Both the position numbers and the translations under genes were made by a program. 43,389 nucleotides of DNA from Hyphomicrobiales bacterium (GTDB lineage: Bacteria > Pseudomonadota > Alphaproteobacteria > Rhizobiales > Beijerinckiaceae). The DNA is taken from NCBI GenBank assembly GCA_027484605.1, contig JAIXSR010000110.1, positions 1-43,389 of the forward strand, given 5' to 3'. Below the pieces are notes generated by a model. The model did no database searches and was not told the origin of the DNA. It was given only the letters and a program-made list of their open reading frames with translations. Shown piece by piece: positions 13,775 through 31,441 of the stretch (positions are counted from its first letter, which is position 1; each line of letters begins with the position of its first letter).

Positions 13775-14530
13775 TCAGCTCCGGCCGCCATCGACAGAGA
13801 GGATCTGCCCGCTGATCCAGCCCGCCTGTTCCGAGGCCAGGAACAGCGTGGCATGGGCGATGTCCTCGGCTGTGCCGAGGCGGCGTGTATGGATGCCCTG
13901 CACCAGCCGCGCCTGCCCTTCCGGGCCGTAGCTCTCCCATTGCCGCTCCGTCGCAGGGTTCGATCGGACGAAGCCCGGCGCAACGGCGTTGGTGGTAATG
14001 CCCATCGGGCCGAGATCCTGGCTCAGTTGCTTCGTCAGGCCGACCAGCGCGTGCTTGGCTGCCGTATAGGCCTGGATCCCGGTGAGGCTCGGCCGCAAGC
14101 CCGCGCCGGAGGCAATGTTGATGATCCGGCCCCAACCGCGTCCGGCCATGGGGCCCGAGGCGGCCTGCGACAGCCAGAAGGCGCCATCCACGTTGGCCTC
14201 GAACAACAGGCGCCAGTTCTCCTCCGTGACGGCCTCGACGGCGCCACCCACCTGCCCGCGGACGCCGCCGGCGGCATTGACGAGAATGTCGATCCGCCCC
14301 TGATGGTCGACGATCGAATGGACAGCGTCATGCGCAGCTTCGCGCCGGCTGACATCCAGCACGATCGGCGCCATCCGTTCCGATGTGGCGAAAGCCGAGA
14401 GGCCCTCGCTGTCGCGATCGGCCACCACGACGAGGCAACCGGCATCCCGCAGGGCGCGGGCGATGGCCTGGCCAATCCCCTGGGCAGCGCCGGTGACCAG
14501 CGCCACGCGCCCGTCAAGGCGGATCTCCAT
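13775..14530 (-). CDS. short-chain dehydrogenase/reductase (SDR)
   Basis: 251 residues of the classical SDR type. The cofactor motif TGAAQGIG is at 13-20, followed by NAAGG near 85-89, where the usual NNAG is altered to NAAG. The catalytic residues are Ser141 in INIASGAG, Tyr155 and Lys159 in YTAAK. The C-terminus ends ILSVDGGRS, as in FabG-like enzymes. It is the last gene of the leftward arm. Its ATG shares one base with the stop of the ketopantoate-reductase-like gene (TGATG), so translation is probably coupled. It probably oxidises or reduces a hydroxy/keto intermediate of the compound handled by this cluster; the substrate is not known. Confidence 0.88.
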   Translation of the reverse strand: MEIRLDGRVALVTGAAQGIGQAIARALRDAGCLVVVADRDSEGLSAFATSERMAPIVLDVSRREAAHDAVHSIVDHQGRIDILVNAAGGVRGQVGGAVEAVTEENWRLLFEANVDGAFWLSQAASGPMAGRGWGRIINIASGAGLRPSLTGIQAYTAAKHALVGLTKQLSQDLGPMGITTNAVAPGFVRSNPATERQWESYGPEGQARLVQGIHTRRLGTAEDIAHATLFLASEQAGWISGQILSVDGGRS

Positions 14531-15576
14531 CAGGCCCCTCCTGCCAGCGGGATGAGTTCGGCGAAGGTCTCGAAGGCCATGGGTTTCCGCCCTTCCTCGA
14601 TATCGTGGATGAGGCTGACCAGCCGCGCGAGGACAGGCGTCGGGATGCCCGCCTCCCCGGCAAGGCTGGCGATGATGCCGATCTGCGGATCGACCTCGGT
14701 CTTGCGCTTGCGGATGGCAAGATCCCGGTAGATGCCGGAATGCGTCTTCGCGGTATGGCGGTTGAACTCGGCCAGGGCGGCAATCGAGGCCTCGGCCAAC
14801 GCTGCAGGGGCGCCGGGCGCGAAACATTCCGGATCGAACCCGTTGAACCCGACCGGCTTCACGCCGCGCGCCCGGGCCACTGCCATGACCTCGCGGCCGA
14901 GCGCCACGAAGACCGGCACACGGGCGGGATCCGCAAAATTCGCACTCATCGAATCCGGCGTGAGCGCAGTGGCGAAGAGCATGGCGCCATAGGCCAGCTT
15001 GCCCCAGAGATAGCCCCAGATATTGTCCGTCAGGACAGCGGCCGGCTCGAAGATGCGCAGCCATTCATGCATCTGACGGGTGCGGTCGCGGACGGAGCCG
15101 TCGATCTCGCCGACAACGACGGCCGCCCGGTTTCCGAACAGGATCTCGCCCGGGCCCAGCCAATCCGCGCCGAAATTGACGAAGCAGCCCATGGTCCGCT
15201 CCGCCCCGATGATCCGGCTGATGGTAATCTCGTTCAGCCCGTTCTGCGCCGAGAGCACATAGCCATCCGGCGCGAGATGCGGCGTCAGCATGGCGAGTGC
15301 GGCTTCTGTGGCATGCGCCTTCACCGCGAGGACGATGATCGGCCATGTCCCCTTGAGGGCATCCGGCGTCACCGTCGGCACAACCTGCCGGAATTGCTCG
15401 ACCGGCCCGGTGATGGCGAGCCCGTTTGTCGAACAGGCCGTCGCGTGTTCGGCCACGAGATCGACCATCGTGACCGGCAGCCCCGCCCGCGCCCAACAGG
15501 CGCCGAGCGTGCCACCGATGGCGCCAGCCCCCCAGATCAGGATCGGGGGCTGGCCGGCATTCGTATGGTCCGCCAC
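14530..15576 (-). CDS. ketopantoate reductase family protein (PanE-like)
   Basis: 348 residues. The Rossmann motif WGAGAIGG is near residues 15-22, the helix segment VLAVKAHATEAAL follows, then SAQNGLNE, and a catalytic-lysine region WGKLAYGAM. These match the 2-dehydropantoate 2-reductase (ApbA/PanE) superfamily, which reduces 2-keto acids with NADPH. It lies between a peptide-type binding protein gene and an SDR gene, so a role in a catabolic pathway is more likely than pantothenate synthesis. The start is a GTG, one base after the binding protein stop. The upstream ribosome binding site is weak, which suggests translational coupling. No better in-frame start exists. Confidence 0.85.
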   Translation of the reverse strand: MADHTNAGQPPILIWGAGAIGGTLGACWARAGLPVTMVDLVAEHATACSTNGLAITGPVEQFRQVVPTVTPDALKGTWPIIVLAVKAHATEAALAMLTPHLAPDGYVLSAQNGLNEITISRIIGAERTMGCFVNFGADWLGPGEILFGNRAAVVVGEIDGSVRDRTRQMHEWLRIFEPAAVLTDNIWGYLWGKLAYGAMLFATALTPDSMSANFADPARVPVFVALGREVMAVARARGVKPVGFNGFDPECFAPGAPAALAEASIAALAEFNRHTAKTHSGIYRDLAIRKRKTEVDPQIGIIASLAGEAGIPTPVLARLVSLIHDIEEGRKPMAFETFAELIPLAGGA

Positions 15577-15577
15577 G

Positions 15578-17155
15578 TTACTTCGCAGGCTTGATGTTCA
15601 TGGCGAGCGTATCCTCGTCGACGCGCGCCTTGATGGTGACCTTGCCCTTCTGCATCGCCCAGGCCGAGCCGACCGCCACGATCGGCAGGCGCTGGCGATC
15701 CTTCAGGACCAGGGCATTGGCGTCCTCGAGCGCCTTGCGCCGCTTGGCCTCGTCCATCTCGACGGCCGCGATCTGGAGGAGCTTGTCCATTTCCTCGTTC
15801 TTGTAGCCGAGAACGTTGAAGGCCCCCATCTTCTTGGCGGCATCATTTGAATGGGCCAGCGAGGAGAGTGTGTAATGCGCCTCGCCCGTCAGTGTGCCCC
15901 AGCCGGACATCGAGGCAGAGAATTCGCCGCGTGTCCGGGCCGGGAAGAAGACCGCCGCGGGCTGGGCATTCGGCGTGGCGTCGATCCCGATGGCCGCGAG
16001 CATCTGCGCCACCGAGGTACCGACCTGCGTGTCGCCCGGCAGGCGGTCCTTGGTGAAGGAGAACTGCATCTTGAAGCCGTTCGGATAGCCGGCAGCCGCC
16101 AGCAATTGCCTGGCCTTGGCAGGGCTGTATTCCCGCGCCGGCAGCGCCTTGTTGAAGCCGAAGATCGACGGCGTGACCATCTGGTTCACCGGCTTGCCGA
16201 GGCCTTCCATCGCCACATCCGCGAGGGCGTTGCGGTCAATGGCCATGTCAATGGCTTCCCGGACGCGGACATCGAGGAAGGGGTTGGCCGGCAGCGCCGA
16301 ACCATCCTTGGCCGTCACGTTCAGGGCCTTCTCGCGCATGTCCAGTTCGATATTGAAAACATACACGGTATCAATAACCTGGACATCGATCTTCGGGTCG
16401 CGCTTCAGCGCGGCGACATCGGTGGCCGGCACCCGGGTGATCAGATCGAGCTGGCCGGCCTTGAGCTGGGCGACACGGGCGGCGTCATTCGCGATCTCCT
16501 TGCGGACATGGCGGGCCCAGGGCTCCTTGGGACCCCAGAAACCGTCGAAACGGTCGAGCACGAGATCGCCCTTCGGTTCCCACGACACATATTTGTACGG
16601 GCCGGTGCCCATGGCGGCCTTGCCGGAATTGAAGGCCGCATTGGCGGATTCCTTGTTCAGGCCCGCTGCCGCCTTGTGAGAGACAATGAACAGGCGGATG
16701 AAATCGTTCGGTAGCGTCGGGGCAGCCCCATCGGTGATGACATGGACCGTCATCGGGTCGACGATTTTCGTTTCCTTGACCCGGCGGACATAGATCGTGG
16801 TCGGGTTCGGCCCCGAGACGACCGGAATGCGTTCGATCGAGAATTTGACATCCTCGGCCGTGAAATCGGAGCCGTCATGGAACTTCACGCCGGGACGCAG
16901 CTTGAATTCCCAGGTCGTGTCGTTGATCGGCTTCCAGCTGGTCGCGAGTCGCGGCTCCAGCTCGAGGCCATCACCCGACCAGACCAGCGTGTCGAAAACA
17001 TGCTTCAGCGCCTCGGCATGGGTGCCGGTGGCGGTGAAATGCGGGTCAATGGAATCCGGCCCGCCGCGCACGCCGATCGTCAGCGTCTGGGCCATGGCCG
17101 GCATGGCACTCGACAAGGCGGTGGCGCAGAAAAGGGCATAAACGAGCGGACGCAT
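15578..17155 (-). CDS. peptide/nickel-type ABC transporter substrate-binding protein (first set)
   Basis: 525 residues, SBP family 5 (DppA/OppA/NikA class). The signal peptide is LVYALFCATALSSAMPAMA. Mature sequence begins QTLTIGVRGGPDSIDPHF. Conserved blocks are LRPGVKFHDGSDFTAEDVKFSIER (in outline, about residues 86-109) and GTGPYKYVSWEPKGDLVLDRF (about 183-203). The start is the ATG at 17155 with GGGGAGA upstream. It heads the leftward arm, divergent from marR. The permease and ATPase genes that should partner it are on the rightward arm (18626-22438), an arrangement consistent with one divergent regulon. The ligand is unknown; this class takes di/oligopeptides, nickel complexes, glutathione or opines. 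Confidence 0.9.
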   Translation of the reverse strand: MRPLVYALFCATALSSAMPAMAQTLTIGVRGGPDSIDPHFTATGTHAEALKHVFDTLVWSGDGLELEPRLATSWKPINDTTWEFKLRPGVKFHDGSDFTAEDVKFSIERIPVVSGPNPTTIYVRRVKETKIVDPMTVHVITDGAAPTLPNDFIRLFIVSHKAAAGLNKESANAAFNSGKAAMGTGPYKYVSWEPKGDLVLDRFDGFWGPKEPWARHVRKEIANDAARVAQLKAGQLDLITRVPATDVAALKRDPKIDVQVIDTVYVFNIELDMREKALNVTAKDGSALPANPFLDVRVREAIDMAIDRNALADVAMEGLGKPVNQMVTPSIFGFNKALPAREYSPAKARQLLAAAGYPNGFKMQFSFTKDRLPGDTQVGTSVAQMLAAIGIDATPNAQPAAVFFPARTRGEFSASMSGWGTLTGEAHYTLSSLAHSNDAAKKMGAFNVLGYKNEEMDKLLQIAAVEMDEAKRRKALEDANALVLKDRQRLPIVAVGSAWAMQKGKVTIKARVDEDTLAMNIKPAK

Positions 17156-17231
17156 GGCGGTCTCCCCTGATGATGCGCCCTCGCCCCGGGCGGGACGCCT
17201 GTGCTTGCATTCAACGTGACGAAATCGCAGC

Positions 17232-17237
17232 CGTCAA
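17232..17237 (-). promoter_or_regulatory. putative -35 element of the leftward arm
   Basis: On the minus strand TTGACG (17237-17232) is followed after 17 bases by TTGAAT, a weak -10. It touches the first of the two 16-bp palindromes (17236-17251), so a bound repressor would cover it. Confidence 0.4.
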
Positions 17238-17251
17238 TTCCTTGTGGAACT
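17236..17251 (+). promoter_or_regulatory. operator-like palindrome, copy 1
   Basis: AATTCCTTGTGGAACT, with inner arms TTCC and GGAA. It shares 12 of 16 bases with the second copy at 17289-17304. It overlaps the -35 regions proposed for both arms. It is probably a binding site for the MarR protein encoded at 17310, by position and repetition. Confidence 0.6.
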
Positions 17252-17269
17252 GTTTTTTGCCCGTATAGT
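17242..17269 (+). promoter_or_regulatory. putative promoter of the rightward arm
   Basis: TTGTGG (17242-17247), a 16-base spacer, then TATAGT (17264-17269). It overlaps operator copy 1 and places the start of transcription upstream of operator copy 2. No strong alternative is visible in the 154-bp gap. Confidence 0.4.
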
Positions 17270-17288
17270 GGGAAAGGATGGCCTGTTC

Positions 17289-17304
17289 AGTTCTATATGG
17301 AACT
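17289..17304 (+). promoter_or_regulatory. operator-like palindrome, copy 2
   Basis: AGTTC (17289-17293), TATATG, GAACT (17300-17304): a perfect 5-bp inverted repeat. It starts 53 bases after copy 1, about five helical turns. It ends 5 bases before the marR ATG, so it also covers the marR ribosome binding region. The pattern fits autoregulation. Confidence 0.6.
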
Positions 17305-17309
17305 AATTT

Positions 17310-17921
17310 ATGCGCGACAAAACGGCACGTCGCCTCCTGGCGAAGCAGAATGATGAAATCGGCAACGTGGTTCCGTTCGGATCGCCGGAGGACGGGGCAG
17401 ACCTGCTCAACCGGCAGCGGCTCGATGCTTTCACCCATGCCCGGCTCTGGAAAAATCCGTGCGGTTTCGCCGCCCGCTTCAACTATCTGGCCTTGCGGTA
17501 CAATGTGCCGCTCTATGGCTGGGTGAAGGAGCGCTTCGATCTTTCCCGCGTGGAATTCGTGGTGATCTACAGCCTTGCGATCCAGGACGGCGTGACGGCG
17601 AGCGAGATCGCCTCCTCGACGGCCTTTCCGAAGAACACGCTCAGCCGCGCCGTCAACCGGTTGATCGGGCTCGGCCTCGTTGCCCGCCGGACGGATGGGG
17701 ATGATCGACGGTCACAGATCCTGACGCTGACCGATGCGGGCCGTGCCGTCTATGACGAGGCCCTGCCCCGCTTCGCCGGACTGGAACAGGAAATGCTTGC
17801 TCCGCTCAGTCTCGTCGAGCGCGAGATGTTGTCCATGCTGCTCGCGAAGGTCGTGCTGGCCATGTTCCATGGCGAGGCGCGGGCCGAGGCAGAGCCGCTG
17901 GCCGGCGCGGAAATGGAGTGA
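17310..17921 (+). CDS. MarR family transcriptional regulator
   Basis: 203 residues. A winged helix-turn-helix lies around residues 88-140: the segment VTASEIASSTAFPKNTLSRAVNRLI is the DNA-reading part, and RRTDGDDRRSQILTLTDAG is the classic MarR wing. The N-terminal 35 residues are longer than in most MarR proteins. It is the first gene of the rightward arm, 3 bases before the creatininase gene and divergent from the binding protein. It most likely represses both arms and is released by the imported compound or a breakdown product. The ribosome binding site is weak (GGA 8 bases upstream) and lies inside operator copy 2. Confidence 0.9.
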   Translation: MRDKTARRLLAKQNDEIGNVVPFGSPEDGADLLNRQRLDAFTHARLWKNPCGFAARFNYLALRYNVPLYGWVKERFDLSRVEFVVIYSLAIQDGVTASEIASSTAFPKNTLSRAVNRLIGLGLVARRTDGDDRRSQILTLTDAGRAVYDEALPRFAGLEQEMLAPLSLVEREMLSMLLAKVVLAMFHGEARAEAEPLAGAEME

Positions 17922-17924: not shown

Positions 17925-18626
17925 ATGCGCATCGCCGAAATGAACTGGATGCAGGCAGAGGCGCGGGCCCGATCGGATGACCGGGCGGTTCTGCCGCTCG
18001 GCTCGACCGAACAGCATGCCTATCTCAGCCTTGCGGTCGATGCGATCCTCGCGGAACGGGTGGCGATCGAGGCGGTCGGCGACAGCGGCGTTCCGGTCTT
18101 TCCGGTCCAGCCTTATGGGTTCACGCCGAATTTCGTCGAATATCCCGGGTCTGTCACCCTGCGCCTCTCGACCTGGATCGCCGTGGTGACGGATATCCTG
18201 GACGGGCTGGTCCGCTCGGGCTTCCGGCGCATCGTGATCGTCAATGGCCATGGCGGCAACTCGCCGGCCCATGGCGCCGTACTGGAATGGCTAGACCGGA
18301 ACCGCGGCTGCCAGGTGAAATGGCACAATTGGTGGAACGCGCCGGAGACCTTTGCCAAGGTGAAGGCGATCGATCCCGTCGCCAGCCATGCCTCCTGGAT
18401 GGAGAACTTCCCCTGGACCCGCCTGTCCGGCGTGACGATGCCGGGCCACCAGAAGCCGATGATGGATATGGGCCGGTTCGCCGCGCTTGATCCCGGCGCC
18501 AAGAAGACCCTGCTGGGCGACGGCAATTACGGCGGCCTTTACCAGCGTTCCGATGCGGACATGCTGGCGATCTGGCAGGTGGCCATTGCCGAGACGCGCG
18601 CCCTGATCACCGAGGACTGGGCCTGA
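17925..18626 (+). CDS. creatininase family amidohydrolase
   Basis: 233 residues, metal-dependent creatininase (creatinine amidohydrolase) superfamily. Probable metal ligands are Glu29, His31 and Asp39 in GSTEQHAYLSLAVDA and His109 in VNGHGGN. A WHNWW segment at 133-137 resembles the substrate-side loop of creatininase. Members open cyclic amides such as creatinine or remove formyl/amide groups, as in riboflavin or coenzyme biosynthesis (MftE, ArfB). Here, between a regulator and a peptide-type transporter, a catabolic ring-opening or amide-cleaving role is likely. The stop overlaps the next ATG by one base (TGATG). The exact substrate is unknown. Confidence 0.88.
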   Translation: MRIAEMNWMQAEARARSDDRAVLPLGSTEQHAYLSLAVDAILAERVAIEAVGDSGVPVFPVQPYGFTPNFVEYPGSVTLRLSTWIAVVTDILDGLVRSGFRRIVIVNGHGGNSPAHGAVLEWLDRNRGCQVKWHNWWNAPETFAKVKAIDPVASHASWMENFPWTRLSGVTMPGHQKPMMDMGRFAALDPGAKKTLLGDGNYGGLYQRSDADMLAIWQVAIAETRALITEDWA

Positions 18627-19600
18627 TGCTCGGCTTCATGATCCAGCGCCTGCTGCAGGCCCTGGTGGTGATGCTGGTCATCTCCGCGCTGGTCTTTATC
18701 GGCGTCTATGCGGTCGGCAACCCGATCGATGTGCTCATCTCGCCGGATGCGACGCAGGCGATCCGCGAGGCGGCGATCAAGGCCTACGGGCTCGACCAGC
18801 CGCTCTGGAAGCAATATCTCGATTTCCTGGCCCGGCTGGTCCGGGGGGATTTTGGCCGGTCCTTCATCTACAACATGCCGGTGCTCGACCTGATCGCCTC
18901 GCGCATCCCCGCGACGCTGGAGCTGACGCTGGTGGCCGTGCTCGGCGCGACCTTTCTCGGCGTGCCGCTCGGCATGTATGCGGGCTACCGCCCAGACAGC
19001 GTGCTGGCGAAGATCATCATGACCGTGTCGATCTTCGGCTTCTCGGTGCCGACCTTCTGGATCGGCCTCGTACTCATCTTCACCTTCGCGGTCCAGCTCG
19101 GCTGGCTGCCTGCCGGCAACCGGGGCGACACGGCCACGCTTTTCGGGGTGGAATGGAGCCTGCTGACCGCCAATGGCTGGAAGCACCTGCTGCTCCCGGC
19201 GCTCAACCTCTCGCTCTTCAAGTTCGCGATGATGGTCCGGCTGGCACGGGCCGGCACGCGCGAGACCATGCTGACCGACACGGTGCGGTTTGCCCGGGCC
19301 GCCGGCGAAAGCGAGTTCACGATCCTGCGCCGGCATGTGCTGCGGCTGATCGCGATCCCGATCGTCACGGTGTTCGGGCTGGAATTCGGTTCGACCATGG
19401 CCTTCGCGGTGGTGACCGAGACGATCTTCTCCTGGCCCGGCGTCGGGAAGCTCATCATCGATTCCATCTCCTCGCTCGACCGGCCGGTCATGGTGGCCTA
19501 CCTGATGCTGGTTGCCTTCTTCTTCATCATCATCAACCTGCTGGTCGATCTCTCCTATGCGGCTCTGGATCCGCGCCTGCGGACACGGAGGGCAACATGA
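18626..19600 (+). CDS. peptide-type ABC transporter permease, DppB-like (first set)
   Basis: 324 residues with six predicted membrane segments. It shows the N-terminal MLGFMIQRLLQALVVMLV start typical of DppB/OppB and the long periplasmic loop after helix 1. The transport-domain EAA-like loop is around FARAAGESEFTILRRHVLR (about residues 221-239). It pairs with the permease encoded next, with a 4-base ATGA overlap. It forms the membrane channel for the binding protein encoded at 15578-17155. Confidence 0.92.
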   Translation: MLGFMIQRLLQALVVMLVISALVFIGVYAVGNPIDVLISPDATQAIREAAIKAYGLDQPLWKQYLDFLARLVRGDFGRSFIYNMPVLDLIASRIPATLELTLVAVLGATFLGVPLGMYAGYRPDSVLAKIIMTVSIFGFSVPTFWIGLVLIFTFAVQLGWLPAGNRGDTATLFGVEWSLLTANGWKHLLLPALNLSLFKFAMMVRLARAGTRETMLTDTVRFARAAGESEFTILRRHVLRLIAIPIVTVFGLEFGSTMAFAVVTETIFSWPGVGKLIIDSISSLDRPVMVAYLMLVAFFFIIINLLVDLSYAALDPRLRTRRAT

Positions 19601-20475
19601 GCGCCACCACGCCGCTTGCCCGCTTCTGGGATGATTTCCGCGCCAATACCCTTGCCGTCATCGCGCTCGGCGTGGTCATCGCCATTGTCCTGATCGCCTT
19701 GGCCGCGCCACTGATCGCGCCGCAGAACCCCTATGATCTGGCAACGCTGGTGCTGACCGATGCACGCCGCCCGCCGGGCTTCGTCGGCTCGAAGGGCTTC
19801 ACGCATTGGCTCGGCACCGATGCGCAGGGCCGCGACCTGCTCTCGGCCATTCTCTACGGGCTCCGCATCTCGATCCAGATCGGGATTCTCGCCGGCGTCA
19901 TCGCCTTCGGCATCGGCGCCACGCTCGGCACCTTCGCCGCCTATTTCGGCGGTCGGATCGAGGCGTTGATCATGCGGATCATCGACCTGCAGCTTTCCTT
20001 CCCCGCCATCCTGCTGGCGCTGGTGCTGGCGGCCCTGCTCGGCCAGGGCAAGGGCCCGCTGATCGCCGCTCTCGTCACGGCGCAATATGCCTATTTCGCC
20101 CGGACGGCGCATGGCGCAGCCTCGGCGGAACGCTCGAAGGACTATGTCGAGGCCGCGCTCTCGACGCCGCTCTCACCGCGCCGGGTCGTGTTCCGCCACA
20201 TCCTGCCGAATTGCATGCCGCCGCTGATCGTCGTGGCGACAGTCCAGATCGCCAATTCGATCGCGCTCGAGGCGACGCTTTCGTTCCTCGGGCTCGGCCT
20301 GCCGGTCAGCGAGCCCTCGCTTGGCATGCTCATCGCCAACGGGTTCCAGTACATGCTCTCAGGGCGCTACTGGATTTCCATCTATCCCGGCGTGGCACTG
20401 ATCATCCTGATCGTGGCCATCAACCTCGTCGGCGACCAGATCCGCGACCAGCTCAATCCGAGGCTGCGCCGATGA
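19597..20475 (+). CDS. peptide-type ABC transporter permease, DppC-like (first set)
   Basis: 292 residues with six membrane segments. The N-terminal OppC-type region is followed by FTHWLGTDAQGRDLLSAILYG, the conserved DppC/OppC block, near residues 67-87. The EAA loop is around SAERSKDYVEAALSTPLSPRR. The ATG at 19597 overlaps the stop of the previous gene (ATGA), and its own stop overlaps the next start in the same way, which points to tight translational coupling. Confidence 0.93.
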   Translation: MSATTPLARFWDDFRANTLAVIALGVVIAIVLIALAAPLIAPQNPYDLATLVLTDARRPPGFVGSKGFTHWLGTDAQGRDLLSAILYGLRISIQIGILAGVIAFGIGATLGTFAAYFGGRIEALIMRIIDLQLSFPAILLALVLAALLGQGKGPLIAALVTAQYAYFARTAHGAASAERSKDYVEAALSTPLSPRRVVFRHILPNCMPPLIVVATVQIANSIALEATLSFLGLGLPVSEPSLGMLIANGFQYMLSGRYWISIYPGVALIILIVAINLVGDQIRDQLNPRLRR

Positions 20476-23334: not shown

Positions 23335-23457
23335 ATGAATTACGAATCTTGCCCGATGCCGTGGAGGCTTTATCTTCCTCAGGAAGCGCTCTTCAGGAGC
23401 TGCCTCCTGCTCCCGGCTCTATCCGCCTTGCCGATCATGAAGGACCCCGCGCCATGA
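23335..23457 (+). CDS. possible 40-residue leader ORF coupled to the GGT-like gene
   Basis: An ATG 2 bases after the deacetylase stop opens a 40-codon frame. It ends with TGA overlapping the ATG of the gamma-glutamyltransferase homologue in an ATGA junction. The product (MNYESCPMPWRLYLPQEALF, then a hydrophobic stretch and MKDPAP) matches no family I know. There is no good ribosome binding site. It could be a coupling leader or chance; the ATGA junction is the only positive sign. Confidence 0.25.
   Translation: MNYESCPMPWRLYLPQEALFRSCLLLPALSALPIMKDPAP
23374..23409 (+). other. two small hairpins in the intra-operon gap
   Basis: CTTCC/GGAAG (23374-23378 with 23382-23386) and CAGGAG/CTCCTG (23394-23399 with 23404-23409, loop CTGC). 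There is no U-tract. They lie in the only sizeable gap of the rightward arm, between the deacetylase and GGT-like genes, and could be an mRNA processing or stability point. Confidence 0.35.
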
Positions 23458-25295
23458 GCTTCGTCAACCCTGCCCGTTTCACCACGCGGCCGGAAATCAC
23501 CGGGACTTTCGGCGTCGTCGCCTCGACGCACTGGATCGCGACGGCGGTCGGGATGGGCATCCTCGAACGCGATGGCAATGCGTTCGATGCCGGCGTGGCC
23601 ACAGCCTTCACGCTGCAGATCGTCGAGCCGCACCTCAATGGCCCCGGGGGCGATGTTCCGATCATGGTGCATGCTGCCGGCAAGGGACAGACGGAGGTGA
23701 TCTGCGGCCAGGGCGTAGCGCCGGCCGGGCTGACCATCGCGCATTGCCGGGCGCTCGGGCTCGACCTTGTGCCGGGCACGGGCCTGCTCGCGCCCTGCGT
23801 TCCGGGCACCTTCGATTCCTACATGCTCCTGCTGCGCGATTACGGGACGATGCCGCTGAGGGCAGTCCTCGAGCCGGCGATTTCCTATGCGCGCCATGGC
23901 TATCCGCTGGTCGAGCGGGTCGCGGCGACGATCCGGACAGTGGAGACGCTTTTCCGCGAGTACTGGACGACATCCGCCGATCTCTACCTGCCGGGTGGCA
24001 AGGTTCCGGTTCCGGGCAGCCGGTTCCGCAACCCTGCCCTCGCCGATACCTATGATCGCCTGCTTCACGAAGCCGAAGCCGGCGGCGGCAGCCGCGAGGC
24101 GGTGATCGAGCGTGCGCGGAAGGTGTGGTCGCAGGGCTTCATCGCCGAGACGATCGACCGTTTCTGCCGGACCCAGGATGTCATGGATGTTTCCGGCCGC
24201 GCCCATCGCGGGGTTCTCAACGGCGATGACATGGCGCGCTGGCAGGCCAGTGTCGAGCGGCCGGCCGAATACCAGTACGGGCGCTACACGGTCCAGAAGC
24301 CGGGCGCCTGGTGCCAGGGCATCGCCACGCTGCAACAACTGGCTCTCCTCAAGGGCTTCGATCTCGACGGGCTTGATCCGGCCGGGCCGGATTTCATCCA
24401 TCTCCAGGTCGAGGCTGCCAAGCTTGCCTTTGCGGACCGGGACACGTTCCTCGGCGATCCCGACCATGTCACGGTGCCGCTCGGGACCCTCCTGTCGGAT
24501 GCCTACAATGTCCAGCGCCGGGCGCTGATCACCGACCGGGCCTCGCATGAGCAGCGGCCGGGCGTCATTCCCGGTTTCGGCGGCGCGATGGCCGTGAAGG
24601 CGGTCACCGGGCCACGTCAGGCCGTGAGTGCCGGCGGCGCCGGCGAGCCGACGGTCGGCGACATCCATACCGGCCATGGCGCCGGCGAGGTGGTCGAGCC
24701 GAATGGCATCACGCGCGGCGATACGGTGCATTTCGACATTATCGACCGACACGGCAACATGATTGCGGCGACGCCTTCCGGCGGCTGGCTGCAATCCTCG
24801 CCGGTCATTCCGGAACTCGGCTTCTGCCTCGGCTCGCGGGCGCAGATGTTCATGCTGGACGAGAACCACCCGGCAGCACTCGCCCCGGGGCGGCGGCCGC
24901 GCACAACGCTCTCGCCGACCATGGCCCTGCGCGACGGCAAGCCCTATCTCGCCTGGGGTTCGCCCGGCGGGGACCAGCAGGACCAGTGGATCCCGCAGAT
25001 GTTCCTGCGACATGTCCATGCCGGCATGAACCTGCAGGAAGCGATCGACGCGCCGGCCTGGCATACGGAGCATTTCCCGACCTCGTTCTGGCCGCGCACG
25101 GCCCGGCCGGGGGTGATTGTCGTGGAATCCCGCGTGTCGAAGGCGACCGTCGCCGAGTTGGAGCGGCGCGGCCATATCGTCGAGGTCGGGCCGGAATGGT
25201 CCGAGGGGCGGCTGGTTGCAGCGTCGCAGGACGGCGAATTCCTGCGTGCTGCCGCCAATCCGCGTGGCATGCAGGGCTATGCGGCAGGCCGATAG
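23454..25295 (+). CDS. gamma-glutamyltransferase family Ntn-hydrolase, no signal peptide
   Basis: 613 residues spanning the full gamma-glutamyltranspeptidase fold. The self-processing nucleophile is probably Thr424 in RGDTVHFDIID, where the usual TTH is TVH. A GGWLQSS segment follows, and the late ALRDGKPYLAWGSPGGDQQ block matches the family's conserved GSPGG region. A precursor is expected to cleave itself before Thr424 into a large subunit of about 423 residues and a small one of about 190. Unlike classical GGT it has no signal peptide, so it should act in the cytoplasm on imported material. The start is the ATG at 23454 (AGGA upstream). Such homologues are often glutathione, gamma-glutamyl or acyl-amide hydrolases. 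The substrate is unknown. Confidence 0.88.
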   Translation: MSFVNPARFTTRPEITGTFGVVASTHWIATAVGMGILERDGNAFDAGVATAFTLQIVEPHLNGPGGDVPIMVHAAGKGQTEVICGQGVAPAGLTIAHCRALGLDLVPGTGLLAPCVPGTFDSYMLLLRDYGTMPLRAVLEPAISYARHGYPLVERVAATIRTVETLFREYWTTSADLYLPGGKVPVPGSRFRNPALADTYDRLLHEAEAGGGSREAVIERARKVWSQGFIAETIDRFCRTQDVMDVSGRAHRGVLNGDDMARWQASVERPAEYQYGRYTVQKPGAWCQGIATLQQLALLKGFDLDGLDPAGPDFIHLQVEAAKLAFADRDTFLGDPDHVTVPLGTLLSDAYNVQRRALITDRASHEQRPGVIPGFGGAMAVKAVTGPRQAVSAGGAGEPTVGDIHTGHGAGEVVEPNGITRGDTVHFDIIDRHGNMIAATPSGGWLQSSPVIPELGFCLGSRAQMFMLDENHPAALAPGRRPRTTLSPTMALRDGKPYLAWGSPGGDQQDQWIPQMFLRHVHAGMNLQEAIDAPAWHTEHFPTSFWPRTARPGVIVVESRVSKATVAELERRGHIVEVGPEWSEGRLVAASQDGEFLRAAANPRGMQGYAAGR

Positions 25296-25304: not shown

Positions 25305-26030
25305 ATGACCTGGTCGATCATCGCCAAGGATCCTGCGACCGGGCAGCTCGGCATCGCGGTGGCGACCTGCGCTTTCGCGGTCGGGGCCCGCGTGCCCTTC
25401 ATCGAGACGGGGACCGGGGCCATTGCCAGCCAGGCCTTCGTCAACCCGTTCTACGGCCTCAGGGGCATGGCCCTGCTCCGGGCCGGCGCTACGGCCCAAC
25501 AGGCGCTCGACATCCTGACCGCACAGGATGAAGGCCGCGGCCAGCGCCAGGTCCATATCCGGGATCGCGCCGGGCGGATCGCGGCGTATACGGGCGCGGA
25601 TTGCGTGCCCTGGTGCGGGCATCTCGTCCGCGACGGCTTTTCCGTGGCCGGCAACATGCTGGCCGGGCCGGAAGTGATCGCGGAGACGGCGCGGATCCTC
25701 GAGGCCCGCGCGGACCTGCCTTTCGCGAAAAGGCTGATCGCCGCGCTTCAGGCCGGCGAGGCGGCCGGCGGCGACAAGCGCGGGAAGCAATCGGCGGCCC
25801 TCCTCATCCATGATGACGAGGATTATGCGCTTTTCGACCTGAGGGTGGACGACCATGCCGATCCGCTCGCCGAGCTGGAACGGCTCGAACGCGTGGCCCA
25901 CGAACGCTACCTGCATTACCGCAAGGTCATGCCCCGGCGGGATGACCCGTCCGGCGTGACCGATCGCGCCGAGATCGAACGCCGGATCACCGAGTCAATC
26001 GCGGCGGAAGCCTCGGAGGGCCGGGGATGA
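25305..26030 (+). CDS. DUF1028 family protein (Ntn-hydrolase-like)
   Basis: 241 residues. The N-terminus MTWSIIAKDPATGQLGIAVAT, continuing CAFAVGARVP, is diagnostic of DUF1028. GRIAAYTGADC near residue 91 and FSVAGNMLAG near 113 are also conserved there. The family has a predicted Ntn-hydrolase-like fold and is often found beside peptide transporters and gamma-glutamyltransferases, but no enzyme activity is established that I know of. It starts 9 bases after the GGT-like gene behind AGGAGG, and its stop overlaps the next ATPase gene (ATGA). An accessory hydrolase acting on the same imported compound is the simplest reading. Confidence 0.88.
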   Translation: MTWSIIAKDPATGQLGIAVATCAFAVGARVPFIETGTGAIASQAFVNPFYGLRGMALLRAGATAQQALDILTAQDEGRGQRQVHIRDRAGRIAAYTGADCVPWCGHLVRDGFSVAGNMLAGPEVIAETARILEARADLPFAKRLIAALQAGEAAGGDKRGKQSAALLIHDDEDYALFDLRVDDHADPLAELERLERVAHERYLHYRKVMPRRDDPSGVTDRAEIERRITESIAAEASEGRG

Positions 26031-27010
26031 GCGCCCTGCTGCGGGTCGAGAACCTGACCGTCAGCTTCGGCACCCCGAGGGGTGGCCGGATCCTCGCGGT
26101 GGACGGCCTCAGCTTCGAGCTGCAGCCCGGGCGGACGCTCGGCATTGTCGGGGAATCCGGCTCCGGGAAAAGCGTCACTTCGCTCGCGGTGATGGGGCTT
26201 CTGGCCAAGGGGGCGGCCCGGGTTGACGGGCAGATACGGTTCCGCGGCGACAGCCTGATCGACGCGCCGGCGGAAACCCTGCGCAACCTGCGCGGCAACC
26301 GGATGGCGATGATCTTCCAGGAGCCGATGACCTCGCTCAATCCGTCGCACCGGATCGGTGACCAGATCGCCGAGGCGGTGATCCGCCATCGCGGCTGGAG
26401 CCACGACAAGGCGTGGAGCCATGCCGTGGAGATGCTGCGCAAGGTGCGCATTCCCGAGCCCGAGGCGCGGGCCGCCGATTATCCCCACAAGCTCTCCGGC
26501 GGCATGCGCCAGCGCGCGATGATCGCGATGGCGCTGGCCTGCGACCCCGAATTGCTGATCGCCGACGAGCCGACCACCGCGCTCGACGTGACGATCCAGG
26601 CGCAAATCCTCGAATTGCTGCAGGATCTTCGACGGGAAACCGGCGCGGCGGTGATCCTGATCACCCATGATCTCGGCGTGGTGGCCGAGGTGGTGGACGA
26701 GGTTCTCGTCATGTATGCCGGGCAGGTTGTCGAGCGGGCCAGCGTCGAGGCGCTGTTCACCCTGCCGCAGCATCCCTACACGCTCGGCCTGCTGGGCTCG
26801 ATTCCCCGGCTCGATATCCGCAAGGAACGGCTGGCGGCGATTTCCGGTGCCGTGCCGGACATGAGCAACCCGCCACCGGGCTGCCGGTTTGCGGCGCGCT
26901 GCCCCTTCGCCGATGCGCGCTGCCGGGCCGAGGCCCCGCCCCTCGCCGCCCTTGGCGAAAACCGCTTCTCCCGATGCTGGAAGGCGCCGCTGGAGGGGCT
27001 CGCCGCATGA
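26027..27010 (+). CDS. peptide-type ABC transporter ATPase, DppD-like (second set)
   Basis: 327 residues. Walker A is [10 protein letters not shown], the Q-loop is [13 protein letters not shown], the signature is LSGGMRQRA, Walker B is [12 protein letters not shown] and the switch is LITHD. The C-terminal [16 protein letters not shown] cysteine cluster is intact. The sequence differs clearly from the first-set DppD-like ATPase, so this is a separate transporter and not a recent duplicate. It overlaps the DUF1028 gene upstream and the DppF-like gene downstream by 4 bases each. In this set the ATPases come before the binding protein and permeases, the reverse of the first set. Confidence 0.93.
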
Positions 27011-28095
27011 ATGCCCTGCTCGATGCCCGCGGTCTTTCCAAGCGCTTCGTGGCCCGGACCAACGTCTTCGGCAAGCCTGTGGCGCATGTCCAGGCCGTCG
27101 ACGGCGTCGACCTGACGCTGGAACCGGGGGAAACGCTGGCCCTGGTCGGGGAATCCGGCTGCGGCAAGTCCACACTCGGGCGGATGCTGATGCGGCTGAT
27201 CGAGCCCAGCGGCGGCGCGCTGCATTTCAACGGCCGCGACCTCCTGGCGCTGGACGATGATGCGATGCGCCATCTCCGCCGCGAGATCCAGATCATCTTC
27301 CAGGATCCTTTCGCCTCGCTCAATCCGCGCATGTCCGTCGGCGAGGCGATTGCCGAGCCCCTGCTGCTCCATGGCATCGTTCCGCCGGCGGAGCGCGCGG
27401 CCCGGGTGGCGAGCCTTCTGGAAACGGTGGGGCTGCGGGCTGAACATGCGGGGCGCTATCCGCATGAATTCTCCGGCGGGCAGCGACAGCGCATCGTGAT
27501 TGCCCGGGCGCTCGCCAGCGAACCGCGGCTGATCATCTGCGACGAACCTGTCTCGGCGCTCGATGTCTCGATCCGGGCGCAGATCCTCAATCTCCTGCGT
27601 GACCTGCAGCGGCGGCTCGGCCTGGCCATGATCTTCATCAGCCACGACCTCGGGGTGGTGAAGCACATCGCGGACCGCGTGGCGGTGATGTATCTCGGCC
27701 GGATCGTCGAGATCGGGCCGGCGGATGCCGTTTTCGCCCAGCCCCGCCACCCCTACACCCATGCCCTGCTCTCGGCGATCCCGATGGCGAGCGCGGTCCG
27801 CCGCAGCCGCCGCGTCGTGCTGGAGGGCGATGTTCCGAGCCCGCTCAACCCGCCGCCGGGATGCCATCTCCATCGCCGCTGCCCCCATGCCCAGCCGCGC
27901 TGCCGCGATGCCGTGCCCTTGCTCGCGGGCGAGGCCGGGCATCGGGTGGCCTGCCATGTCTCGGCCGATATCCGGTTCGACGAGGCCATGCTGCCGCGCG
28001 AGACCCAGCCGGATCCCCGCCTTTCCCGCCTGCTCTCGGCCTTCGAGGCCGGGACGCCGTCTGCCCTCCCCGACCCATCCCCTCCGGAGACATGA
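27007..28095 (+). CDS. peptide-type ABC transporter ATPase, DppF-like (second set)
   Basis: 362 residues. Walker A is GESGCGKSTL, the Q-loop is IIFQDPFASLNPR, the signature is FSGGQRQRI, Walker B is LIICDEPVSALD and the switch is FISHD. The C-terminal extension has PGCHLHRRCPHAQPRC and a longer tail than usual, rich in Ser and Pro (about the last 40 residues). The start is the ATG at 27007 in an ATGA overlap. One base separates its stop from the ATG of the binding protein gene, so expression is tightly linked. Confidence 0.93.
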   Translation: MNALLDARGLSKRFVARTNVFGKPVAHVQAVDGVDLTLEPGETLALVGESGCGKSTLGRMLMRLIEPSGGALHFNGRDLLALDDDAMRHLRREIQIIFQDPFASLNPRMSVGEAIAEPLLLHGIVPPAERAARVASLLETVGLRAEHAGRYPHEFSGGQRQRIVIARALASEPRLIICDEPVSALDVSIRAQILNLLRDLQRRLGLAMIFISHDLGVVKHIADRVAVMYLGRIVEIGPADAVFAQPRHPYTHALLSAIPMASAVRRSRRVVLEGDVPSPLNPPPGCHLHRRCPHAQPRCRDAVPLLAGEAGHRVACHVSADIRFDEAMLPRETQPDPRLSRLLSAFEAGTPSALPDPSPPET

Positions 28096-28096: not shown

Positions 28097-29617
28097 ATGA
28101 AGACAAGCCTGCGCCTCGGGCTCATCGCCCTGCTTTCCGCCCCGATCCTCGCCGGCACCGCGCTGGCGCAATCGGCGATCCGCATCGGTCTTGCCGAGGA
28201 TCCCGATGTGCTCGATCCGACCCTCGCCCGCACCTATGTCGGGCGTATCGTCTTCTCCTCGATCTGCGACAAGCTGTTCGATATCGACGAGAAACTGGCC
28301 GTCGTGCCACAACTGGCGCTCGGCCATGAAACCTCCGCCGATGGCAAGACGGTGACGATCAAGCTGCGGCCGGGCGTGAAGTTCCATGACGGCGAGGCGC
28401 TGGATGCCGAGGCGGCGAAATACTCGCTCGACAGGCACCGGACCATGCAGGGCTCCTTCCGCCGCGGCGAACTGAGCCAGGTCGATGCGGTCGAGGTGGT
28501 CGACCCGCTGACGATCCGCATCGTCCTCAAGACGCCGTTCTCGCCGCTGATCGCCCAGCTGACCGACCGCGCCGGCATGATGGTCTCGCCCAAGGCAGCG
28601 AAGGAGGCCGGCGACAGGTTCGGCCAGAAGCCGGTCTGCGCCGGACCCTACAAGTTCGTCGAGCGCGTCCAGCAGGACAGGATCGTGGTCGAGCGCTTCG
28701 CGGATTACTGGGACAAGGCGAATGTCTCGATCGACAAGATCACCTATGTGCCGATCGCGGATTCCACCGTGCGGCTGGCCAATCTCAAGTCGGGCCAGCT
28801 TGACCTGATCGAGCGCGCCCTGGCGACCGATCTGAAGGATATCCGGGCGAGCCGGGGCCTCAAGGTGGCAACCGCCTACGAGCTGGGCTATCAGGGCCTG
28901 ACGATCAATGTCGGCAAGGGCGAGGCGGCCAAGGGCCCGCTCGGTTCGGATGCCCGCGTGCGGCAGGCGCTCGAGGCGGCGATCGACCGCGAGGCGCTGG
29001 TCCAGGTGGTGTTCAATGGCGAGTTCAAGCCGGGCAACCAATGGGTCAATCCCGACAATGCCTTCTACCAGAAGAGCATTCCCGTCACGAAACGCGATAT
29101 CGCCAAGGCGAAGAAGCTGCTCGCCGATGCCGGCGTCAAGCTGCCGGTTCCCGTCGATCTGATGGTGCCGAACAATCCCGAGACCCGCCAGTTGGCGGAG
29201 GTCATGCAGGCCATGGCGGCAGAAGCCGGCTTCGACATCAAGATCCGCGTCACGGAATTCGCGACCTCGCTGAAGGAGGCCGAAGCCGGCAATTACCAGG
29301 CCTACATTCTCGCCTGGTCGGGCCGGACGGACCCGGATGGCAATATCCATTCCTTCGCCAGCACCGGCGCGCCGAACAATTACTCGGCCTATTCCAGTGC
29401 CGAGGTCGATGCCGCGCTCAACGACGCCCGGACGAAGAACGCCATGGCCGATCGGATGGCCGCCTACCAGAAGGCCGCGAGCCAGCTCGCGAAGGACCTG
29501 CCGATCGTCTATCTCTATCATCGGCTGGTGATCATCGCCCATCGGGACCGGCTTGAAGGCTATCGCCAGATGCCGGATGGCCTTGTCCGCGTGGTCGGCC
29601 TGAAGGTGAAGGGCTGA
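28097..29617 (+). CDS. peptide/nickel-type ABC transporter substrate-binding protein (second set)
   Basis: 506 residues, SBP family 5. The signal peptide is LRLGLIALLSAPILAGTALA. The mature protein starts QSAIRIGLAEDPDVLDPTLA. The blocks LRPGVKFHDGEALDAEAAKYSLDR (in outline, about residues 91-114) and CAGPYKFVERVQQDRIVVERF (about 181-201) are typical of the family. It is only distantly similar to the binding protein at 15578-17155, so the two systems probably prefer different ligands. It lies between the ATPase and permease genes of its own set. The ligand is unknown. Confidence 0.92.
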   Translation: MKTSLRLGLIALLSAPILAGTALAQSAIRIGLAEDPDVLDPTLARTYVGRIVFSSICDKLFDIDEKLAVVPQLALGHETSADGKTVTIKLRPGVKFHDGEALDAEAAKYSLDRHRTMQGSFRRGELSQVDAVEVVDPLTIRIVLKTPFSPLIAQLTDRAGMMVSPKAAKEAGDRFGQKPVCAGPYKFVERVQQDRIVVERFADYWDKANVSIDKITYVPIADSTVRLANLKSGQLDLIERALATDLKDIRASRGLKVATAYELGYQGLTINVGKGEAAKGPLGSDARVRQALEAAIDREALVQVVFNGEFKPGNQWVNPDNAFYQKSIPVTKRDIAKAKKLLADAGVKLPVPVDLMVPNNPETRQLAEVMQAMAAEAGFDIKIRVTEFATSLKEAEAGNYQAYILAWSGRTDPDGNIHSFASTGAPNNYSAYSSAEVDAALNDARTKNAMADRMAAYQKAASQLAKDLPIVYLYHRLVIIAHRDRLEGYRQMPDGLVRVVGLKVKG

Positions 29618-29621
29618 GCCG

Positions 29622-30563
29622 ATGTTCGCGCTGATCGCCCGGCGGCTGCTGCAACTGGTTCCGACGGTCATCATCGTCTCGATGATGATCTTTGGCCTGC
29701 AGCAATTGCTGCCGGGCGATCCGGCCACGATCATGGCCGGCGAGGAGCGCGATCCGGAGGTGATCGAGGAGATCCGGAAACAGTACCGGCTCGATCAGCC
29801 CATCCCGCTGCAATACATCTACTGGATCAAGGGCGTGATGAGCGGCGATCTCGGCGAATCCATGCGCCTGAAGGAGCCAGTTTCCCGCCTCGTGGCGCAG
29901 AAGCTGCCGGTGACGCTGCAGCTCGCCACCATGGCCATGCTGATCGCGATCCTGATCGGCGTACCGGCTGGGATCATCTCGGCCGTCAAGAAAGGCACGT
30001 TCTGGGACTATCTGGTCAACATCATCTCGCTATGGGGCATCTCGACACCGAATTTCTGGCTCGGGATCCTGATGATCTTCCTGTTCTCGGTCCATCTCGG
30101 ATGGTTGCCGGCCTCGGGCTACGTCAGCCCGTTCGAGGATCCCTGGCAATCGCTCAAGACCACGATCATGCCCGCTTTCGTGCTGGGCAACTCGATTGCC
30201 GGCGTGCTGATGCGCCATACCCGTGCCGCGATGCTGCAGGCGCTGTCCTCGGATTACGTGCGCACCGCGCGTGCCAAGGGCCTCGGTGAGAAGCGCGTCA
30301 TCCTCGCCCATGCGATGCGCAATGCGCTCACACCGGTGATCACGCTCGGCGCGCTGGAATTCGGGACGCTGCTGTCCGGGGCCGTGCTGACGGAGCAGAT
30401 CTTCACCATTCCCGGTTTCGGCAAGCTGATCGTCGACGCGGTGTTCAACCGTGACTATGCGGTGGTGCAGGGCGTCGTGCTGGTCACCTCTGCCACCTAT
30501 ATCGTCCTGAACCTGCTTGCGGATATCGGCTATATCCTCGTCAATCCGAGGCTCCGGGCATGA
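29622..30563 (+). CDS. peptide-type ABC transporter permease, DppB-like (second set)
   Basis: 313 residues with six membrane segments, beginning MFALIARRLLQLVPTVII as in DppB/OppB. The loop QQLLPGDPATIMAGEE near residues 27-42 and the EAA-type loop around VRTARAKGLGEKRVILAHA (about 211-229) are family-typical. It starts 4 bases after the binding protein gene and its stop overlaps the next permease start (ATGA). Confidence 0.93.
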   Translation: MFALIARRLLQLVPTVIIVSMMIFGLQQLLPGDPATIMAGEERDPEVIEEIRKQYRLDQPIPLQYIYWIKGVMSGDLGESMRLKEPVSRLVAQKLPVTLQLATMAMLIAILIGVPAGIISAVKKGTFWDYLVNIISLWGISTPNFWLGILMIFLFSVHLGWLPASGYVSPFEDPWQSLKTTIMPAFVLGNSIAGVLMRHTRAAMLQALSSDYVRTARAKGLGEKRVILAHAMRNALTPVITLGALEFGTLLSGAVLTEQIFTIPGFGKLIVDAVFNRDYAVVQGVVLVTSATYIVLNLLADIGYILVNPRLRA

Positions 30564-31441
30564 CAGCCGCCACCCCGGCCCTTGCCGGATCGCTCCGCCC
30601 CGAAACGCCGATGCAGCGCGCCTGGCGGCGCCTGCGGGCGCGGAAGGCCGCGATGTTCGGGCTTTTCGTCATCGTGGCTCTGGTGATCATCGCGATCTTC
30701 GCGCCGCTGATCGCGCCGTTCGATCCGACCCGCCAAAGCTGGGCCGCCGTGCGCAAGGCGCCCTCCGCTCTGCATTGGTTCGGGACGGACGAAGTCGGCC
30801 GCGACCTGCTTTCGCGCATCATCTACGGCACACGGGCCTCGCTCGCCGCAGGCGTGATCTCGGTCGGGATCGCCGTCGCGCTCGGCGTGCCGCTCGGCCT
30901 GCTGGCGGGCTACGGGCCGCGCTGGATCGACACGATCCTCTCGCGCATCACCGATGCGATGCTGGCGAGCCCTTTCCTGATCCTCGCCATCGCGCTGGCC
31001 GCATTTCTCGGGCCGAGCCTGACCAATGCGATGATCGCCATCGGGATCACGGCGACGCCGATCTTCATCCGGCTGACGCGCGGGCAGGTTCTCGCCGTGA
31101 AGGTGGAGGATTATGTCGAGAGCGCCCGGGCCGTCGGCAATCCGCGCTGGCGGATCGCGGTGAAGCACATCCTGCCGAATGTCATGCCGCAACTGCTCGT
31201 CCAGATCACGCTGACCATCGCCATGGCGGTGATTGCCGAGGCCAGCCTTTCCTTCCTCGGGCTTGGCCAGCAGCCGCCCGCCCCCTCCTGGGGCTCGATG
31301 CTGAATTCCGCGCAGCGCTTCCTGACCAATGCGCCGTGGATGGCGATCTGGCCCGGCCTTGCGATCTTCGTCACCGTCCTGTCCTTCAACCTGCTCGGCG
31401 ACGGGCTGCGCGACGCGTTCGATCCGCGCGAGCGGGGATAG
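30560..31441 (+). CDS. peptide-type ABC transporter permease, DppC-like (second set)
   Basis: 293 residues with six membrane segments. The conserved block LHWFGTDEVGRDLLSRIIYG is near residues 69-88, and the EAA-type loop is around VESARAVGNPRWRIAVKHI (about 187-205). It is the last gene of the 14-gene rightward arm that starts with marR. No clear terminator follows. The 182-base gap to the next gene has a possible stem GCCGGA/TCCGGC and a TAATTA stretch at 31528-31533, but nothing I can assign. Confidence 0.92.
   Translation: MTAATPALAGSLRPETPMQRAWRRLRARKAAMFGLFVIVALVIIAIFAPLIAPFDPTRQSWAAVRKAPSALHWFGTDEVGRDLLSRIIYGTRASLAAGVISVGIAVALGVPLGLLAGYGPRWIDTILSRITDAMLASPFLILAIALAAFLGPSLTNAMIAIGITATPIFIRLTRGQVLAVKVEDYVESARAVGNPRWRIAVKHILPNVMPQLLVQITLTIAMAVIAEASLSFLGLGQQPPAPSWGSMLNSAQRFLTNAPWMAIWPGLAIFVTVLSFNLLGDGLRDAFDPRERG

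Follow-up and report, generated by a model that had tools for sequence, protein, structure and literature searches.

Two described importer–hydrolase arrangements provide the reference for the locus analysed here. According to excerpts of one article (PMC10355420), gsiABCD of Escherichia coli sits with iaaA, there called an open reading frame (ORF) of unknown function, and gisABCD of Staphylococcus aureus sits with ggt, whose gamma-glutamyltransferase (GGT) product is cytosolic and has no signal peptide. Our subject is a block of 17 genes in a 43,389-nucleotide stretch, hereafter the window, of contig JAIXSR010000110.1 (assembly GCA_027484605.1) from a Hyphomicrobiales bacterium of the Beijerinckiaceae. 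The block, at positions 13775–31441, consists of two modules that each encode a peptide-type importer. Module 1 includes genes for a solute-binding protein (SBP1), a MarR-family regulator, a creatininase-like hydrolase, a CE4 hydrolase, and PanE-like and SDR oxidoreductases, and module 2 contains genes for a GGT-like N-terminal nucleophile (Ntn) hydrolase, a DUF1028 protein, and SBP2 (Table 1).

As in E. coli, the genes of a family 5 solute-binding protein and of peptide-type permeases and ATPases lie beside that of a cytosolic Ntn amidohydrolase, with SBP2 being closest to YliB (GsiB), and an IaaA homologue is encoded in relatives of module 1. The window differs in that it adds the creatininase-like, CE4, PanE-like, and SDR genes and lacks IaaA. 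It shares with the S. aureus system the pairing of a peptide-type ABC importer and a GGT-family enzyme that has no signal-peptide-like start by hydropathy, but its GGT-like protein is altered at four pocket positions, a DUF1028 gene adjoins, and the regulon is larger. By analogy, the Gsi/IaaA and Gis/Ggt layouts seem to reappear in more elaborate form in module 1 of the relatives and in module 2, respectively; membership of the GGT-like enzyme in glutathione import systems is not supported by its sequence.

We consider it somewhat better than an even chance that the locus is a MarR-controlled two-module catabolic regulon that serves a single pathway acting on a small amide- or peptide-like compound. 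Judged by gene content, modules 1 and 2 each occur alone elsewhere and are fused collinearly in one clade of the genus. The enzyme set is recurrent but, as far as the open-access literature was searched, undescribed: in open-access PMC papers, we found no description of the module-1 set or its substrate, no matching paper on diketopiperazine hydrolysis or a creatininase-family catabolic cluster, and no relevant paper combining creatininase, polysaccharide deacetylase, and isoaspartyl peptidase.

Occurrence of the two modules in relatives

A profile search with the CE4 protein gave at least 573 confirmed candidates in named genomes, of which the best 80 loci were kept; 74 of these extend at least 2 kb beyond CE4. 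In this best 80 of at least 573, homologues of the creatininase-like protein, SBP1, B1, C1, and D1 accompany CE4 in 54 loci (the module-1 loci), PanE-like genes occur in 44 (40 of them within the 54), and MarR genes in 33; an SDR gene is often part of module 1 as well. The preliminary description had named as a check whether creatininase-like, CE4, GGT-like, DUF1028, and PanE-like genes co-occur near such importers in relatives. Co-occurrence was found for the creatininase-like/CE4/importer core and in part for PanE, but not for DUF1028, which was found in none of the 80 loci, or for a GGT of the window's type (none within 10 kb of CE4); the module-gene search returned a single GGT-family match above threshold, with 28% identity (L101). 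The gene order of module 1 is variable, for example F-D-C-B-SBP1 divergent from GntR-creatininase-PanE-SDR-CE4-IaaA, and thus the set holds together through rearrangements. It is also present on two annotated plasmids, of Agrobacterium (no annotated PanE gene) and Alloyangia (PanE present, with an adjoining urate/allantoin cluster). In CE4 loci without module 1, CE4 is often paired with an SDR and other transporters.

Clustering of the ORFs revealed a gene missed by the preliminary description, namely an isoaspartyl-peptidase homologue (IaaA below), which is carried by most relatives of module 1 and absent in the window. It was detected in at least 45 of the 80 loci, including no fewer than 44 of the 54 with module 1; these are minimum values, since whole-genome searches find IaaA genes in some of the same loci that clustering had overlooked. 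The whole-genome searches for IaaA and GGT covered 50 of the 54 loci (L103, L110, L112, and L114 were excluded), and IaaA was found in 48 of these 50 genomes. In Pfam, NCBIfam, and PDB searches, the homologue is an Asparaginase_2 protein close to E. coli IaaA that keeps the GTVG nucleophile motif and scores below the NCBIfam cut-off (293.3 vs. 567). Among the other families brought out by clustering, 21 of the 80 loci have a GntR regulator and 16 have an M32 carboxypeptidase.

Some neighbours of CE4 deserve mention in their own right. An S58-family peptidase gene lies between CE4 and IaaA in seven Microvirga loci (L070, L072, L075, L080, L090, L097, and L114; Pfam assignment on the L080 copy). 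In three of the 80 loci, another GGT subfamily directly follows CE4 (L078:10948-12594, L105:3643-5280, and L106:7582-9195); in the alignment, it has Gly at the position of E. coli R114 and represents a separate CE4–GGT pairing. In the congener G082 (L032:8821-10700), CE4 faces hydroxyacyl-CoA dehydrogenase-like and BKACE (DUF849-like) genes, judged by eye, a pair that resembles the layout of carnitine degradation. A hydantoin or purine pathway was considered, as HyuA/HyuB, M20, M81, and carbon-nitrogen hydrolases are among the CE4 neighbours; none of these families reaches five of the 80 loci in the ORF clustering, and we regard this as a lead only.

Module 2 was followed through the GGT-like protein, which 27 of 149 genomes of the order (the window's own genome excluded) encode with at least 53% identity; in 12 of these 27, DUF1028 directly adjoins it. 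SBP2, B2, and C2 homologues lie beside the GGT gene in 12 of 18 loci from the order, in one of them with SBP2 at only 24% identity; one of the remaining loci is cut by a contig end, and five lack SBP2, B2, and C2. The exact order of the window, GGT-DUF1028-D2-F2-SBP2-B2-C2, occurs in 2 of the 18. In four loci on plasmids, GGT is accompanied by the importer in three, DUF1028 gave no match in any, and three plasmid module-2 copies are flanked by their own FCD/GntR-type regulator gene. In L139 (11165-16767) and L140 (11263-16827), another complete dpp-type importer precedes module 2 (its SBP is 33% identical to SBP1), and two importers around GGT-DUF1028 therefore recur outside the genus of the window.

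The GGT-like protein and the other enzymes

The GGT-like protein is a clear member of its family (Pfam G_glu_transpept, 5e-115) that scores below the NCBIfam cut-off for GGT (TIGR00066; 262.4 vs. 357.85). Its nucleophile T424 is present in all 32 GGT-like sequences compared, which include the window's own. In the alignment with 2e0w, the positions of E. coli GGT R114, N411, Q430, and D433, which we take to be the residues binding the gamma-glutamyl group, read Q, G, R, and M in every one of the 32; Thr or Ser occupies the positions of S462/S463, and the glycines at G483/G484 are kept throughout. HpxW is a GGT-family member that is not known to have a gamma-glutamyl role; the chains of 5hft, presumably the HpxW oxamate amidohydrolase of Klebsiella, were matched at E-values of 3.5e-19 and 3.2e-18, and the similarity to the window protein is distant.

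The best PDB relative is 6j3a, with similarity over the full length (E-value 3.4e-201), the same D/T cleavage motif, and the same letters at the four changed pocket positions. We found no open-access PMC paper on 6J3A, but its match to published features suggests that it is LmbA2991, which according to excerpts of the original report is cleaved at D420/T421 into 420 and 197 amino acids, with a small subunit that starts TCHLDVVDRW (PMC5519988). The same excerpts state that LmbA2991 shares the C–C bond cleavage of Ant6, with oxalic acid as co-product, and in another article the authors report that LmbA and Ant6 lack gamma-glutamyl activity (PMC6085292). The window protein agrees with these actinobacterial enzymes in its full-length similarity to 6j3a and in the motif and pocket letters shared with it; it differs in context, as the known members are involved in, or able to serve, the synthesis of antibiotic precursors and the window gene lies among importers and hydrolases. 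Because of the four changed positions and the LmbA2991-type closest solved relative, the GGT-like protein is probably not a true gamma-glutamyl enzyme. The gamma-glutamyl substrates suggested in the preliminary description are contradicted by the same observations, and its statement that all hydrolases of the locus have only amide-cleaving relatives conflicts with the C–C bond cleavage reported for LmbA2991 in the excerpts cited. Scavenging of glutathione or other gamma-glutamyl compounds as the role of module 2 was rejected in view of the pocket positions.

The DUF1028 protein scores far above the Pfam gathering threshold (242 vs. 26.2), and its model (predicted local distance difference test, 82.7) suggests an Ntn-hydrolase-like fold: the Foldseek ranking is headed by 2imh, followed by proteasome and HslV chains at E-values of 2.4e-5 to 1e-3 and modest template modelling scores of 0.35–0.62. 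Thr2, the candidate N-terminal nucleophile after removal of Met, is invariant (10 of 10 sequences). Residues 15–26 are a hydrophobic stretch that the model renders as a strand followed by the first part of a low-confidence loop. No mention of DUF1028 was found in the open-access PMC papers searched.

CE4 keeps D42, D44, H114, and H118 and belongs, by sequence and fold, to a branch with 3rxz (putative) and HP0310 as the closest and PuuE as the next relatives. It falls far short of the NCBIfam cut-off for PuuE (70.3 vs. 424.6), and in the alignment PuuE lacks the second His of HxxxH, which the window CE4, 3rxz, and 3qbu keep. In the creatininase-like protein, E29, H31, D39, and H109 are invariant in 55 sequences. 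It reaches the broad Pfam family but not the NCBIfam cut-off TIGR04448 (66.5 vs. 235); the PanE-like protein likewise scores below that of ketopantoate reductase (TIGR00745; 126.8 vs. 141.35), and SBP1 and SBP2 below that of GsiB (160.8 and 214.1 vs. 594). The substrates of these proteins can therefore not be read from their names. A PADLOC run with CE4, the GGT-like protein, and DUF1028 gave no defence-system match for these three. Signal-peptide-like hydrophobic starts, judged by hydropathy only, are present in SBP1 and SBP2 and absent in the creatininase-like, CE4, and GGT-like proteins, in agreement with the earlier proposal that the hydrolases have no signal peptide.

Joining of the modules and competing explanations

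In the one-pathway reading, related compounds would enter the cell intact through SBP1 and SBP2, and the creatininase-like and CE4 enzymes would hydrolyse their amide or ring bonds. A further acyl bond, perhaps 2-oxoacyl or oxalyl rather than gamma-glutamyl, may be cleaved by the LmbA-type Ntn hydrolase and the DUF1028 protein with its putative Ntn fold. The hydroxy or oxo acid set free in this way would be a substrate for oxidation or reduction by the SDR and PanE-like enzymes, and MarR would bind two palindromes 51–52 bp apart and control both arms.

One link between the modules is seen within the genus, where 10 of 17 genomes contain CE4 and nine contain GGT, each of these nine being among the ten (Fisher p 0.0004, uncorrected for kinship). 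All 17 genes are collinear in seven of the 17, the window included, and these seven form one clade with a support of 1.0 (tree of 20 loci and seven proteins). The dN/dS ratio (non-synonymous to synonymous substitution rates) is 0.02–0.27 for every one of the 17 genes in three genome pairs, formed with three of the six other fused genomes, and thus indicates purifying selection. Two further congeners, G201 and G206, have CE4 and GGT on separate contigs, and G082 carries module 1 alone. The GGT-like gene of G201 sits in a complete module 2. As the G201 and G206 copies branch just outside the fused clade in the GGT tree, module 2 was probably resident in the genus and then moved.

A second link is seen in Microvirga, where six of the seven genomes among the 50 have GGT near module 1 on the same contig; the seventh, a metagenome-assembled genome (MAG), has it on another contig. 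The distance between the modules is about 3–5 kb in five of these six and about 14 kb in G189, and module 2 is complete wherever the examined stretch extends far enough. In the five closer cases, the modules are convergent and the gene order is unlike that of the window. Because the modules are side by side there in another order, they probably serve one pathway. The wider distribution points in the same direction: GGT is present in 39 of the 50 module-1 genomes vs. 30 of the 149 order genomes at the same E-value cut-off (uncorrected for kinship, and the two sets differ taxonomically), and in the order sample four of eight other CE4 genomes (at least 54% identity) have GGT, with 1.4 expected (p 0.036, uncorrected for kinship; Fisher value based on the 27 of 149 genomes). 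The single pathway of the preliminary description is in this respect still probable. Its view of the 17 genes as a generally conserved set did not hold, as there are two modules outside the fused clade and the break falls at 23333–23453, the gap that had been named beforehand in the refuting condition.

Several observations weigh against one pathway. The co-occurrence figures are uncorrected for kinship, fusion and IaaA loss may each be a single event, and one fused genome (G202) is only 83% complete. The GGT-like gene of G206 is without DUF1028 and importer in the 19.5 kb examined. If about 15 lineages are assumed, the probability that chance brings the modules within 30 kb in a 6-Mb genome in one or more of them is 0.14, so that Microvirga alone is no proof of linkage. 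In the module-1 genomes with GGT outside Microvirga and the fused clade, the two lie on separate contigs or at a distance of more than 40 kb (with IaaA as module-1 marker). GGT is absent in 11 of the 50 module-1 genomes, 10 of which have IaaA, and is thus not required; IaaA (48 of 50) and GGT (39 of 50) are not mutually exclusive. The missing LmbA-type GGT near CE4 in the 80 loci adds to these points, as does the promoter scan of the window, with no promoter-like site vs. 1.8 expected.

The strongest competing explanation, tentative as it is, holds that two unrelated nutrient-scavenging operons are neighbours by chance and that the gap between CE4 and the GGT-like gene contains a separate promoter. 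It would account for the end of synteny after CE4 in all three unfused module-1 congeners, for the lack of LmbA-type GGT genes near CE4 in the best 80 of at least 573 loci, and for the separate FCD/GntR-type regulator genes beside the three plasmid copies of module 2. It does not fit well with the collinearity in seven congeners under purifying selection, with the renewed proximity in Microvirga, or with the co-distribution in the genus. Moreover, the terminator scan of the window (four terminator-like sites vs. 8.5 expected) gave none inside 23333–23453, and in the window module 2 has no regulator gene of its own. The gap is 106–130 bp long in the fused congeners and poorly conserved.

It is rather unlikely that the GGT-like enzyme took over the role of a lost IaaA, as a swap of Ntn hydrolases within a single fused pathway. 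Such a swap would explain why IaaA was not found in any of the seven fused genomes, window included (positive controls were run; G202 is 83% complete), and was found in all three unfused module-1 congeners. The branch of L033 and L041 lost IaaA separately, and both genomes have GGT-DUF1028-SBP2-B2-C2 elsewhere; the other GGT subfamily directly after CE4 in three loci would also be in line with a replacement. However, GGT and IaaA coexist in most of the 50 relatives, where the split seen in the genus does not extend, two losses beside a GGT have no statistical strength, and the genome of L100 lacks both IaaA and GGT.

The original proposal, in which all 17 genes form a single pathway for cyclic amides or gamma-glutamyl peptides, appears improbable. 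It is compatible with the gene content, the hydrolases without signal-peptide-like starts, the similarity of SBP2 to GsiB, and the retained glycines aligned to G483/G484, and it has a precedent in S. aureus GisABCD-Ggt, described in the cited excerpts as an importer with a cytosolic GGT (PMC10355420). Against it stand the pocket letters Q, G, R, and M in all 32 sequences, the LmbA2991-type closest solved relative, and the score below the NCBIfam GGT cut-off. Chance assembly or an annotation artefact, conceivable for one contig of a draft genome, is refuted by the same gene order in six other genomes and can practically be dismissed.

Gene layout, control region, and wider bearing

All 17 ORFs were confirmed, and each reaches the Pfam gathering score of the kind of family named for it; the preliminary description was thus right about the places of the genes, the divergent region with its MarR gene, and the two peptide-type importers. 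From the divergent region, the leftward arm runs SBP1, PanE-like, SDR (outermost), and the rightward arm runs from MarR to C2 in the order of Table 1. Besides the divergent region and the gap of 121 bp, the other 14 of the 16 junctions are tight (-4 to +9 bp). ATGA overlaps had been said to bind most genes: the tightness is confirmed, but only six of the 16 junctions are 4-bp overlaps and two more overlap by 1 bp.

Table 1. Features of the two-module locus (window coordinates)
Feature	Position	Strand	Remarks
SDR oxidoreductase, module 1	13775..14530	-	Pfam adh_short_C2 2.2e-53; syntenic in fused congeners
PanE/ApbA-like dehydrogenase, module 1	14530..15576	-	GTG start; Pfam ApbA 3.4e-24; under NCBIfam TIGR00745 cut-off
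SBP1, family 5 solute-binding protein	15578..17155	-	Pfam SBP_bac_5 9.9e-84; signal-peptide-like start (hydropathy)
Divergent region, 154 bp	17156..17309		two operator-like palindromes
Palindrome 1	17237..17251		core TTCCTTGTGGAAC
Palindrome 2	17289..17304		AGTTCTATATGGAACT (GTTC-N6-GAAC)
MarR-family regulator	17310..17921	+	Pfam MarR_2 1.2e-12
Creatininase-family hydrolase, 233 aa	17925..18626	+	Pfam Creatininase 1.4e-38
Permease B1 (DppB/OppB type)	18626..19600	+	
Permease C1 (DppC/OppC type)	19597..20475	+	
ATPase D1	20472..21446	+	oligo_HPY
ATPase F1	21443..22438	+	oligo_HPY
CE4 (NodB-homology) hydrolase	22442..23332	+	3rxz/HP0310/PuuE branch
Gap, 121 bp	23333..23453	+	the two modules meet here
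GGT-like Ntn hydrolase	23454..25295	+	LmbA2991 type; predicted self-cleavage D423/T424
DUF1028 protein	25305..26030	+	possible Ntn-hydrolase-like fold (model); invariant Thr2
ATPase D2	26027..27010	+	oligo_HPY
ATPase F2	27007..28095	+	oligo_HPY
SBP2, family 5 solute-binding protein	28097..29617	+	best PDB sequence match YliB (GsiB); signal-peptide-like start (hydropathy)
Permease B2 (DppB/OppB type)	29622..30563	+	
Permease C2 (DppC/OppC type)	30560..31441	+	

The exact core of palindrome 1 is present in 14 and palindrome 2 in 15 of 17 distinct loci (L040 and L166 are from one genome, PAR1, and were counted once), and both are found in 12, spaced 51–52 bp. In the window, palindrome 1 has two matches at up to three mismatches, one of them exact, with 0.33 expected. 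In the window by itself, palindrome 2 does not exceed chance; its weight comes from its conservation and the spacing across loci. We infer that MarR binds to the two palindromes.

To the left, a terminator-like hairpin of 13 pairs lies at 13730–13760, just past the end of the SDR gene, and delimits the cluster on this side. To the right, an NMT1-type ABC transporter (31573–34343) is followed by genes for an SDR, an acyl-CoA dehydrogenase, and an APH-type kinase (34371–37360), a trio that recalls hydroxy-acid (levulinate-type) catabolism, and by phosphonate-type ABC transporter genes for an ATPase, a phosphonate-binding SBP, and two permeases (37451–41030).

Beyond the window, we put forward as a possibility, with clear reserve, an undescribed pathway that is widespread in Alphaproteobacteria and, judging from two MAG contigs, extends to Betaproteobacteria. 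In it, the creatininase-like, CE4, and LmbA-type hydrolases would be supplied by two importers, the GGT-like protein being a 2-oxoacyl or oxalyl hydrolase and DUF1028 a working Ntn hydrolase. Module 1 is a recurrent seven-gene core in the 54 loci and offers a testbed for the joint role of creatininase-like, PuuE-branch CE4, PanE-like, and IaaA-like proteins, and the seven-to-three split in the genus provides natural pairs that differ in the presence of IaaA and of the fusion. Module 2 suggests that some annotations as gamma-glutamyltransferase next to peptide importers are wrong, and it points to a role for DUF1028. If the GGT-like protein indeed acts on 2-oxoacyl or oxalyl compounds and DUF1028 is a working enzyme, both orphan families would gain a physiological role.

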